Of a stretch of 51,060 nt of DNA, positions 47,052 to 51,060 are shown piece after piece. The stretch comes from Nitrosarchaeum sp. (lineage in GTDB: Archaea; Thermoproteota; Nitrososphaeria; Nitrososphaerales; Nitrosopumilaceae): the NCBI GenBank assembly GCA_020431985.1, contig JAGQHF010000025.1, positions 1 through 51,060 of the forward strand. The letters run 5' to 3'. The position numbers were made by a program, and so were the translations under genes. Under the pieces are notes generated by a model. It was not told the DNA's origin, made no database searches, and saw only the letters and a list, made by a program, of their open reading frames with translations. Numbering within the stretch: the first letter of the stretch is position 1; each line of letters begins with the position of its first letter.

Positions 47052-47744
47052 TTATCTATTATCAGTTGACAGTTTTTTCCTTCTGCTAGAAATTACAACT
47101 TCAATAATCAGCCAGCCAATAATCACGGATAGTACCGTAATTGCAGACCACAGGAAATCAGATGAAGGATCGCCTGTTTGTGCTGGAAGATGTTCCGCAT
47201 CATCAATCATTAGGGATTTGGACATTGCACCACGCATGGCAGATTCTTCTGGAAGCGGAGTCACGTCTGCCGGAATTGATTGGATGAATTCGGGGTTAGA
47301 TGAAGGCCCAGATTGAAGCATCTGAGAGGAAAACCATGCTGCAATTGAGGCTCCACCAAGAGTGGCAAGTCTATGAATACGACTAAATGAATTAAATAGA
47401 GATTTACTTTTTTTTGCTGGTTGTTCCATGGCAGAAGGTAGTATGACTATAGCAACTTTATCTACAGTGTAAAATTTCACATCATGTGATTTGGTATTTT
47501 TTCCAACGTTATCTATTTTCACAACTCCAGCAGTTTGCATTTTTTTTAAATGATGAATGACTAAAGGCAATGACAAGTCAGTCTTTTGAGATATTTGGTT
47601 GGCTGACAATGAATTATTGAATAGTAATTTCAGGATTTGCCTACTAGAGTCTGATGAAAGAATTTCTCCAATAATTTTTAATTTTTCATCCTCAGTAGAC
47701 AGAATATCAATTTTGTCAGAAACATTGGCTTCATCGGAGCTCAT
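47052..47744 (-). CDS. membrane-anchored ArsR/MarR-type HTH protein
   Basis: A 230-residue protein. Residues ~22-95 are a winged helix (S-S-D-S-S-R-Q-I-L-K-L-L-F-N-N-S-L-S-A-N-Q-I-S, then L-S-L-P-L-V-I-H-H-L-K-K-M as recognition helix). A Ser/Lys-rich linker follows, then a probable helix at about 125-142 and a stronger one at about 198-220. The loop between contains P-A-D-V-T-P-L-P. Such proteins are common in ammonia-oxidising archaea and may bind DNA at the membrane. The signal it senses is unknown. Confidence 0.78.
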   Translation of the reverse strand: MSSDEANVSDKIDILSTEDEKLKIIGEILSSDSSRQILKLLFNNSLSANQISQKTDLSLPLVIHHLKKMQTAGVVKIDNVGKNTKSHDVKFYTVDKVAIVILPSAMEQPAKKSKSLFNSFSRIHRLATLGGASIAAWFSSQMLQSGPSSNPEFIQSIPADVTPLPEESAMRGAMSKSLMIDDAEHLPAQTGDPSSDFLWSAITVLSVIIGWLIIEVVISSRRKKLSTDNR

Positions 47745-47963
47745 TAAAATGATTTAGGAATAATTTGTATTATTAAGACTTCTACTTTTTGAATATCTAG
47801 GATCTACTTTTTATTTAAGAAATGAGTACTAATAGATGAAAGCTGGCACGATATCCTATGTCATAATGTTGGCGATTGTTTACCGGTCTGAGCATACTTG
47901 CAGGGCTGTGTAAAGATTGAACCGCAAAAGTCGGCTTTCAGAACTTATCAATCAGACGCACAT

Positions 47964-48137
47964 CTATGATCTAGATCTTGTCCTAAGAATCGCACTGCAA
48001 CAAGGACACCGGATAGAGTCAACATCCATGAATAATCCACAAAAGGTACACCTTTTCTGGCCAATTTCATATCGAAGACTATTCCGAACAGATTTGCCTT
48101 CAAATTTATAACAAAGGCCTTTACAGGTTCTTGCCAT
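47964..48137 (-). CDS. Cys-rich microprotein C, zinc-ribbon type
   Basis: A 57-residue protein with C5-x3-C9-x20-C30-x2-C33-x10-C44-P-C46-C47 and a basic end (L-R-T-R-S-R-S). The Cys spacing is identical to that of the gene just upstream. It belongs to a C-K-G-x-C...G-Q-K-R-C...C-P-C-C pattern which I recognise from ammonia-oxidising archaea; function is unknown. Its ATG shares one base with the upstream stop (TAATG), so the two are co-translated. It is the last gene of a three-gene operon. A plus-strand frame over the same bases (47917-48111) is a shadow. Confidence 0.72.
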   Translation of the reverse strand: MARTCKGLCYKFEGKSVRNSLRYEIGQKRCTFCGLFMDVDSIRCPCCSAILRTRSRS

Positions 48138-48310
48138 TATACTATCTCCCTAGTTAGGACATTATGACAACATGGACATCGGTGGTATTTTGAAATGATG
48201 TGTTCATCACAAACCGAGCACCATTTTTTGTAAATTGATGAATTCTTTTTTCTAAATGACGCGTTTGCTTGATAATATCTACAAATACTAGAACAAAAAT
48301 TTGTGCTCAT
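48137..48310 (-). CDS. Cys-rich microprotein B, zinc-ribbon type
   Basis: A 57-residue paralog of gene C with C6-x3-C10-x20-C31-x2-C34-x10-C45-P-C47-C48 and an end L-T-R-E-I-V. The seven Cys give two metal sites with one sharing partner or His. Its ATG overlaps the stop of gene A as ATGA. It may bind zinc or iron; control by a Fur/PerR-type protein next door (inference) would fit either metal. Confidence 0.72.
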   Translation of the reverse strand: MSTNFCSSICRYYQANASFRKKNSSIYKKWCSVCDEHIISKYHRCPCCHNVLTREIV

Positions 48311-48477
48311 AGTACACCTCTCAACACCTGTTTAGCTCGTTGAAAGTTAGAATTACACTTTTTGCAGTAAATACAATTGTTATCAATTTTCACACTAACG
48401 CTACCACACTTTATGCAAATCTTGACTGAATGATTCACTGTTTCATATTTTGCATGTTTCTTATTCATAGCACTCAT
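48307..48477 (-). CDS. Cys-rich microprotein A
   Basis: A 56-residue basic protein with C21-x2-C24 and C35-x2-C38-x2-C41, a single zinc-ribbon-like site, not closely similar to genes B and C. It is the first gene of the operon; TATA-like TTTAATA (minus strand, about 48499-48505) is 22-28 bases upstream and overlaps one of the two palindromes. Its stop is ATGA-overlapped with gene B. No family known. Confidence 0.65.
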   Translation of the reverse strand: MSAMNKKHAKYETVNHSVKICIKCGSVSVKIDNNCIYCKKCNSNFQRAKQVLRGVL

Positions 48478-48485
48478 AGTATTAT

Positions 48486-48500
48486 TAGGAATTATTCCTA
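48486..48500. promoter_or_regulatory. 7-1-7 palindrome, proposed Fur/PerR operator 1
   Basis: TAGGAATTATTCCTA is a perfect 7-1-7 inverted repeat, the form of Fur and PerR boxes. It lies 9-23 bases outside the start of microprotein A and touches its TATA-like box, so binding should block that promoter. Confidence 0.72.
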
Positions 48501-48519
48501 TTAAAGTGTTATTATTTAA

Positions 48520-48534
48520 TAGGAATTATTCCTA
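48520..48534. promoter_or_regulatory. 7-1-7 palindrome, proposed Fur/PerR operator 2
   Basis: A second identical copy of TAGGAATTATTCCTA, 34 bases from the first. It lies 10 bases upstream of TATA-like GTATTAAATAC (48545-48555) of the Fur-family gene, at the place where BRE/TFB or an activator would bind. Autoregulation is the natural reading (inference). Confidence 0.72.
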
Positions 48535-48575
48535 ATAAGAATAAGTATTAAATACAGAATTCATCAAGATAAATT

Positions 48576-48998
48576 GTGCATACAGAGCAGATTGTTACAA
48601 TACTCCGGAATGAAGGACACAGAGTAACACCTCAACGAATTGCAATAATAGATTATCTTATACATACTGAGGATCATCCAAGTGCAGAAAATGTTCATGC
48701 AATAGTAAAAAAGAGATATCCAATGGTAAGTCTATCAACAGTATACAAAACACTGGACCTGTTAAGACAAAAGAAGCTTGTAAATGAGATTGAAGTTGAG
48801 GGAGAAGCTAGATTTGATGCACATGTAGACGATCATATCAATTTAGTGTGTCTTAGCTGCGGAAAAATTGAAGATATTGATGAAAATCTGCTAAAGAATA
48901 TTCAATCCAAGGTTGCAAAAAGATCAGAATATGTGATAATAAAAGCAAGCTTTGAGTTGCACGGATATTGCAACAAGTGCAAATCAAAATATCAATGA
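48576..48998 (+). CDS. Fur-family metalloregulator, PerR-like
   Basis: A 140-residue protein: N-terminal winged helix (R-V-T-P-Q-R-I-A-I-I-D and S-L-S-T-V-Y-K-T-L), hinge, and dimerisation domain. C92-x2-C95 and C132-x2-C135 form the structural zinc site. Of the PerR sensor residues, D81 (Asp in PerR, Glu in Fur), H34 and H87 are present, but the second His of D-H-x-H is Asn89. So it is PerR-like with an altered site and may sense iron, manganese or peroxide differently. The GTG start is 21-31 bases after the TATA-like box. It diverges from the microprotein operon. Confidence 0.9.
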   Translation: MHTEQIVTILRNEGHRVTPQRIAIIDYLIHTEDHPSAENVHAIVKKRYPMVSLSTVYKTLDLLRQKKLVNEIEVEGEARFDAHVDDHINLVCLSCGKIEDIDENLLKNIQSKVAKRSEYVIIKASFELHGYCNKCKSKYQ

Positions 48999-49053: not shown

Positions 49054-49308
49054 ATGTTATCATATATGCTTCTAAATTGTAGTCCAGGTTCAGAATCAGA
49101 AGTAATATCAGAGATAAGTGAACTTCCTGGAGTGATAGAGGTAAATGGAGTTTTGGGCAAATATGATGTCTTTGTCAAAATTTCTGCTGACAATCCAGAA
49201 ACTATGGAATTAACAGTTGCACAAATAAGAAAGATAAGGATGCTCAGTAGTCATACTCTTCCTGTAGTATATGGACAAGGTGGAACAATCGATAAAGAGA
49301 TCAACTAA
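49054..49308 (+). CDS. stand-alone Lrp/AsnC effector domain (RAM)
   Basis: An 84-residue protein that is only the alpha/beta ligand domain of Lrp/AsnC regulators: Y-M-L-L-N-C-S-P-G-S-E at the start, L-P-G-V-I-E-V-N-G-V-L-G-K-Y-D-V-F-V-K-I in the middle. There is no DNA-binding part. Such proteins (SMRDs) bind amino acids and can form rings or mix with full regulators. The ATG at 49054 matches the family start. Confidence 0.85.
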   Translation: MLSYMLLNCSPGSESEVISEISELPGVIEVNGVLGKYDVFVKISADNPETMELTVAQIRKIRMLSSHTLPVVYGQGGTIDKEIN

Positions 49309-50346: not shown

Positions 50347-51060
50347 ATGCGCTCAAAATTAGCCGTGTTTGCAGTTTTTTTTATGTTTGTTCTCATGACC
50401 ATGCCAGCATATGCAAATATTACTTCACTCTCCCTAGAAAAGGGATTCTATACAATAGATGAGAATTTTAAGTTTATTGGCACACAAGAAGGGAAAAATA
50501 CAGTTTTTGTCGTGATTCGTGATTCATTTGGAGACTTTAAAGGAATGCTTTCTGATCCGTCCCCTGATCAAGGAGTATTTGAAGTAATTCCAAGGCCAGT
50601 AGGTAATTTCTTTGAAAAGAAAGGCATCTACAATGCAACTGCCTTTATAGATAAGCAAAAGGAAGAGGAAGGATTTACGGTAAAATTGGAATTTGATGGG
50701 AAGAAAGTGTTTGTGGTTCCAGATTTTGTTTTAACTTTGAAATCAATCTCAGATAAGACAGTTGAAGAAAAAAAGACTTTGTCGTTTACTGCTACTCTAA
50801 CTGAGTCGGTATCAGGAGCCATGTTTAGCCTAGAGAAAAACCCTCCAAATGGCGCGGTTATAGATCCAGATACGGGTCACTTTACATTTACTCCAACCGC
50901 ATCTCAAGCTCCTGGTGTTTATCAATTTGATATAGTTGTAACAAAAGGAGCACAGACAGACAGGGAGACAATTAAAGTCACAGTAACAAAAAAGATAGAA
51001 CAACCGGAACCACAACCGGAACCACAACCGGAACCACAACCGGAACCACAACCGGAACCA
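50347..51060 (+). CDS. secreted Ig-like protein with PEPQ repeats (runs off window)
   Basis: At least 238 residues from ATG 50347. A signal peptide (about residues 1-22, ending P-A-Y-A), a beta-rich N-terminal domain, then a putative Ig-like/cadherin-like domain (P-P-N-G-A-V-I-D-P-D-T-G-H-F-T-F-T-P), then at the right edge Q-P-E-P repeats. The Ig-like segment is typical of surface-layer or adhesion proteins. The remainder is outside the window. A TATA-like AAAAATAAAT lies at about 50320-50330. Confidence 0.75.
   Translation, partial: MRSKLAVFAVFFMFVLMTMPAYANITSLSLEKGFYTIDENFKFIGTQEGKNTVFVVIRDSFGDFKGMLSDPSPDQGVFEVIPRPVGNFFEKKGIYNATAFIDKQKEEEGFTVKLEFDGKKVFVVPDFVLTLKSISDKTVEEKKTLSFTATLTESVSGAMFSLEKNPPNGAVIDPDTGHFTFTPTASQAPGVYQFDIVVTKGAQTDRETIKVTVTKKIEQPEPQPEPQPEPQPEPQPEP
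51001..51060 (+). repeat. five 12-base tandem repeats encoding Q-P-E-P
   Basis: The unit CAACCGGAACCA occurs five times without a mismatch up to the window edge. In frame it encodes Gln-Pro-Glu-Pro, an extended linker typical of surface proteins. The lack of synonymous change implies recent expansion or ongoing slippage. Confidence 0.95.

Follow-up and report, generated by a model that had tools for sequence, protein, structure and literature searches.

A PerR-type regulator facing three Cys-rich microprotein genes in Nitrosopumilaceae: a probable autoregulated switch

Introduction

Which genes does a Fur-family regulator control in an ammonia-oxidising archaeon, and to what signal does it respond? 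The question is raised by a contig from Nitrosarchaeum sp. (JAGQHF010000025.1; the whole 51,060-nucleotide stretch analysed is called the window below), on which a fur gene faces three small Cys-rich open reading frames (ORFs) across a pair of identical palindromes. Ammonia-oxidising archaea are aerobic ammonia oxidisers exposed, in ocean and soil alike, to stress from peroxide and trace metals, and in the literature we searched we found neither a PerR or Fur regulon for them nor an operator-defined metal- or peroxide-responsive regulon of any kind. We think it probable that the locus is a self-contained, autoregulated PerR-type switch controlling the three microprotein genes, its DNA binding, repression, signal and metal content all being predictions from sequence. 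Regulator, operator and targets are all at hand here for in vitro testing, and the locus is an entry point to a large family of microproteins. In most lineages the three microprotein genes appear to have replaced a known iron-storage gene (dps).

Layout of the locus

The regulator gene (fur/perR; 48576..48998, + strand) encodes a protein of 140 residues, from a GTG start that aligns with the ATG of the fur genes of relatives. On the opposite strand lie the genes for microproteins A (48307..48477, 56 residues), B (48137..48310, 57 residues) and C (47964..48137, 57 residues), whose junctions overlap, on our reading of the ORFs, as ATGA between A and B and as TAATG between B and C. Microprotein A has a zinc-ribbon-like C-x2-C ... 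C-x2-C pattern, while B and C have seven Cys each in the same spacing, C-x3-C-x20-C-x2-C-x10-C-P-C-C. Between regulator and operon stand two exact copies of the 15-bp 7-1-7 palindrome TAGGAATTATTCCTA, neither assigned to a strand and 34 bp apart: P1 (48486..48500), which lies 8 bp before the ATG of A, and P2 (48520..48534). The first-pass annotation had described the twin identical palindromes, the three overlapping Cys-rich ORFs of 56-57 residues and the common Cys spacing of B and C, and in all of this it was right.

Its placing of one palindrome at the operon's TATA-like box and of the other just upstream of the regulator's needs a slight correction: the operon box sits between the two sites, and the second site sits between the two TATA boxes. 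The spacer (48501..48519, - strand) contains the TATA-like element TTAAATAATAA (48519-48509), the predicted promoter element of the operon. The corresponding candidate for fur, TATTAAATA (48546..48554, + strand), was read in the sequence and is kept in relatives; its position about 26 bp before the GTG would be consistent with a leaderless fur mRNA.

The ORF that comes right after fur (49054-49308) encodes a stand-alone Lrp/AsnC ligand-binding domain, 84 residues long, and a close relative of it also follows fur in locus L017. At the contig end, a repetitive Leu-Trp-Phe-Arg ORF (50830-51051) probably results from reading a low-complexity repeat on the wrong strand or in the wrong frame.

The regulator

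The Fur protein matches the family model PF01475 over profile positions 2-120 of 121 with 104.1 bits, above the curated cut-off of 23.1, and it is the single full-length Fur homologue in the window's genome. Among PDB entries it matches B. subtilis PerR best (2FE3, 7.8e-23), and next a Fur and a streptococcal PerR. Members of the family can be told apart by a few residues: Asp as against Glu at position 104 distinguishes PerR from Fur, the PerR residues oxidised by peroxide are His37 and His91, and a Zur can be recognised by Cys at the position of Asp85 and by the lack of His37 (PMC4866751). In the alignment to B. subtilis PerR, the archaeal protein has D100 at Asp104, as a PerR does, and it has the peroxide-oxidised His pair together with Asp85 (H34 at His37, H87 at His91 and D81 at Asp85); D81 and H34 are not what a Zur would have at these positions. 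All of these residues, and N89 at the position of His93, are invariant in the 14 relatives aligned, and so is the structural zinc site formed by two CxxC pairs (C92/C95/C132/C135). Because the equivalents of Asp104, His37 and His91 are present and the Zur Cys is absent, the regulator is, by its signature residues, PerR-type, and the Fur/PerR-like assignment of the first-pass annotation is upheld.

In two respects the protein departs from a textbook PerR. The ligand His93 is replaced by Asn (N89) in all 14 relatives, and the NCBIfam PerR equivalog model scores 135.8 bits where its cut-off is 180, for which reason we do not call the regulator a PerR orthologue. The PerR of group A Streptococcus also has Asn (N101) at the His93 position, and its N101A mutant still binds DNA (PMC3931707). 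Separately, an additional Fur paralogue that has diverged further (59% identity) and is accompanied by neither palindromes nor microproteins was seen in Nitrosopumilus 13_July_SF_Bin28 (L136, also G315:C4:31086-31463).

The twin operators

A single palindrome of this kind is unremarkable, since the window holds seven perfect 7-1-7 palindromes and about six per window are expected from 100 first-order Markov simulations. An identical pair within 200 bp, on the other hand, occurred in none of 100 such simulations of the window, and at one mismatch or fewer the genome, 1.82 Mb in size, has no sites besides P1 and P2. Fur-like sites stand at the same upstream place in all 19 of the Nitrosopumilaceae genomes with a strong Fur match (more than 98 bits, found in 19 of 121 genomes and called Fur+ here), and the spacing of the pair is nearly always 34 bp. 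Some loci have one weak site (L005, L008, L009 and L013), and in a few P2 is degenerate or one site is missing (L013, L118, L121 and L205). Among 17 further distinct loci that were left out of motif building, both sites scored above threshold at exactly 34 bp in 14, and at least one site did so in all 17; 3,400 shuffles of these out-of-sample regions yielded no pairs and 17 single sites.

Measured over 34 loci, the information per column amounts to 1.59 bits for P1, 1.55 for the spacer and 1.47 for P2, against 0.53 on the coding side, with conservation concentrated on site, spacer and site. The whole 49 bp from P1 to P2 is one conserved, predicted promoter-operator unit, which we take to act as one because the spacer carries the operon's TATA-like element. 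As in Fur/PerR operators, a 15-bp 7-1-7 inverted repeat thus lies over the predicted promoter of its target and is kept in relatives; the operator sequence itself differs from that of bacterial PerR/Fur boxes, although some P2 sites have the half TGATAAT. The first-pass annotation had staked its reading on finding palindromes and microprotein genes beside the fur homologs of relatives, and in the Nitrosopumilaceae both are conserved there, strongly so.

The proposed switch

In an unstressed cell, a dimer of the regulator loaded with metal (Fe or Mn) would sit on both P1 and P2. The TATA-like element TTAAATAATAA lies between the sites, and P1 is for that reason predicted to fall over the start site of the operon, about 25 bp downstream of the element, where the bound dimer would stop initiation of A-B-C. 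The regulator's own promoter would be held down by bound dimer as well. On exposure to H2O2, the Fe-bound His ligands H34 and H87 would be oxidised, like His37 and His91 in B. subtilis, or the metal would be lost, and the dimer would come off the DNA; A, B and C would then be made together, along with more regulator. The three products would act in the metal or oxidative stress response as small zinc-ribbon-like proteins, most likely binding metal through Cys4 sites. The site P2, which has a TATA box on either side and closely precedes the one belonging to fur, may serve repression of fur, added repression of the operon, or activation. What was originally proposed as a metal- or peroxide-controlled unit is in this way narrowed to a PerR-type one by the signature residues and by dps in the operon position elsewhere (see below), the wiring being predicted.

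The size of the regulon

With up to two mismatches allowed, 33 sites are found in the window's genome, almost all of them, besides the twin pair, inside ORFs; a handful fall between genes (C136:8926, C210:12522 and position 47755 of the window) and have no shared context. A relaxed Fur-box pattern gave three sites beyond the pair in the same genome, two of them inside ORFs, while the third, TGAGAATnATTCTCA, recurs in the congener G025 beside a different gene. Neither search produced another convincing operator in the window's genome, and the stand-alone ferritin/dps loci that we examined had no strong box (best 10.8, against 12-23 for most operators). As the other candidate sites are mostly within ORFs or lack a shared context, the regulator seems to serve its own divergon and little else, barring its use of sites unlike this motif. 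The intergenic site in the window (47755-47769, TAGGAATAATTTGTA) is a half-conserved one with two mismatches, 10 bp before an ArsR-like gene (47052-47744, - strand), and could be chance.

These searches also bear on the nature of the signal. If the regulator were Fur proper, responding to iron, or a manganese switch, it would sense metal status and not peroxide, and A-C would be made under metal limitation or excess. That PerR and Fur sites are nearly alike, that the change of His93 to Asn might alter the choice of metal and that iron also acts on dps would all fit such a regulator. Nothing resembling an iron-uptake regulon appears, however, there being no further convincing operator in the genome; position 104 is Asp, not Glu, in all 14 aligned relatives (the rule of PMC4866751), and the top PDB match is a PerR. 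We consider a metal-status switch unlikely, though worth keeping in mind, and prefer the peroxide-responsive, PerR-type switch.

The microproteins

Microproteins A and B, and nearly always C, are encoded divergently beside fur in the Nitrosopumilaceae, and the order fur-A-B-C is held in nearly all genomes with readable flanks, the gene order being fixed while the flanking genes vary between genera. The exceptions are G058, with dps and a truncated A-like ORF; G050, with dps, C and B and no A; G187, with A and B and no C; and L122, with A, a C-like gene and B. Extra C-like copies are present in L133 and L183. Microprotein B was found in 17 of the 19 Fur+ genomes (83-112 bits) and in none of the 102 Fur- genomes (best 34 bits), so that full-score matches are confined to the former; one of the two Fur+ genomes without a B match, G110, has its fur at a contig end. 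The co-occurrence of B and Fur has a Fisher p of 8e-19, in a statistic that ignores relatedness, but Fur+ genomes turn up in six genera, and all but one of these genera contain Fur- genomes too.

The Cys residues are invariant among orthologues, four in A (whose orthologues occupy the same place), seven in B and seven in C. Taken from unsaturated pairs only, as dS was saturated for many pairs, dN/dS is 0.02-0.04 for B, 0.03-0.08 for fur, 0.05 for C and 0.19 for A, the last two values coming from one pair each and that for A from congeners. With dN/dS at 0.02-0.19 wherever dS is unsaturated, A, B, C and fur are, as judged by these ratios, real genes under purifying selection. The most divergent of the microproteins in the window's genome is A.

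Microprotein C has relatives in 120 of the 121 Nitrosopumilaceae genomes searched; a genome can have as many as 18 of them, and the window's genome has 13. The C orthologues above 100 bits are located at fur loci. One further C orthologue above 100 bits, in G220, stands on a contig that breaks off directly behind it, and in G100 an additional copy with a high score lies on a different contig. More widely, C-like 'RCPCC' microproteins occur in 221 of 300 genomes of the class: besides the Nitrosopumilaceae, several related taxonomic families have them, and other families of the order lack them. Within this large microprotein family, B and C are homologues.

Neither B nor C matches a Pfam model or comes near the cut-off of an NCBIfam model, and a fold search with structures predicted by AlphaFold, for C at pLDDT 72 and for B at pLDDT 77, returned no significant match; the non-significant ones include zinc ribbons, ribosomal zinc proteins, Nop10, rubrerythrin and nigerythrin. 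We considered and set aside the zinc ribbon of anaerobic ribonucleotide reductase for A, for which the Pfam and NCBIfam matches are weak and below cut-off, and metallothioneins for B and C, whose content of about 12% Cys is too low for that class. The C-x2-C motifs in the window are CIKCG and CKKCN in A, CSVCD and CPCCH in B, and CTFCG and CPCCS in C. All three proteins are shorter than 70 residues, but each has at most one strict C(P)XCG motif where the C(P)XCG micro-proteins have two; CPCCG is found in many C relatives. Motifs of the C(P)XCG type can be metal-free, and AlphaFold2 is unable to decide the matter (PMC11241148). Metal buffers, redox-sensitive metal binders and adaptors of ribosome or polymerase are all candidates for what A-C perhaps are.

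The dps link and the history of the locus

In four loci (G104, G058, G050 and L133) the operon begins, behind the same box P1, with dps, and in all of these but G058 microprotein genes come after it. In streptococci dps is a proven PerR target (PMC3458967). Two Nitrososphaera genomes (L134 and L135) have fur divergent from dps across a single P1-like box (TAAGAATGGCTCTTA and TAAGAACTATTCTTA), with no P2 and no microproteins. The Fur tree, which was built on short proteins and has many weak inner branches, places the Nitrosopumilaceae in one clade (99/96), joined to Nitrososphaera (98/93), and the dps-bearing G058 and G050 are among the deepest branches of that clade. From the tree, and from the presence of dps at the operon start in Nitrososphaera and some Nitrosopumilaceae, we infer that the fur-dps divergon came first: the version with a single palindromic box seen in L134 and L135 is likely the ancestral form, to which P2 and A-B-C were probably added before dps was mostly lost.

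A Zur-like switch, sensing zinc and controlling A-C as zinc stores or zinc chaperones, is highly improbable, for although the zinc-ribbon Cys patterns of A-C would suit it, the partner in other lineages is dps and not a zinc gene, and the equivalents of Asp85 and His37 are invariant, where Zur has Cys and no His37 (PMC4866751). We give just as little credit to the idea that a different factor uses the sites, or that they are there for fur autoregulation alone, with A-B-C as neighbours without shared control: C-type proteins do occur in many Fur-less genomes, and the family as a whole is independent of Fur, but P1 lies over the predicted operon start site, Nitrososphaera has its single P1-like box before dps and no P2, B is found only alongside Fur, and the gene order is constant despite differing flanks between genera.

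A further and more tentative suggestion, which may well fall short, is that a PerR-dps divergon was re-tooled in the Nitrosopumilaceae. Three zinc-ribbon-like microproteins would have been inserted behind dps and dps mostly lost, bringing the first microprotein to the start position of dps under the same operator. The near-sole output of an archaeal peroxide switch would then have become a set of Cys-rich microproteins that perhaps buffer metal or serve as adaptors of the ribosome or of RNA polymerase.

Comparison with known systems

The closest parallel is bacterial PerR, of B. subtilis and of streptococci, with its targets dps, mrgA and dpr. The archaeal locus has in common with it the Fur fold, the zinc CxxC pairs, the equivalents of Asp104, His37, His91 and Asp85, and a 7-1-7 operator, as well as, in several archaeal lineages, the partner gene dps. 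It differs in having Asn at His93 (as in N101 of group A Streptococcus), in the operator sequence TAGGAATnATTCCTA, in the divergent twin operators, in a regulon of nearly a single locus, and in the microproteins that replace dps in most genomes. Rubrerythrin is a PerR target in clostridia, and its rubredoxin-like domain has a C-x2-C ... C-P-x-C knuckle in common with the microproteins, which for their part lack the diiron domain, have an extra N-terminal C-x3-C and show no significant sequence or fold match to it.

Among archaea, Sulfolobus solfataricus likewise has a single Fur-family regulator, SSO2244, whose gene was induced 4.25-fold by peroxide (PMC2739297). It differs from the present case in that its regulon is unmapped and no microprotein partner is described, as far as the parts of that report dealing with SSO2244 go. 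The Haloferax C(P)XCG zinc-finger micro-proteins (HVO_2753, HVO_0758 and others) are, like A-C, archaeal one-domain proteins of fewer than 70 residues with two Cys pairs; they are predicted zinc fingers and have been implicated in stress adaptation (PMC11241148, PMC10716476, PMC6562870). In A-C, by contrast, not every pair ends in CG, the number of Cys in B and C is seven, with a CPCC knuckle in each, and the proteins are tied to a named regulator.
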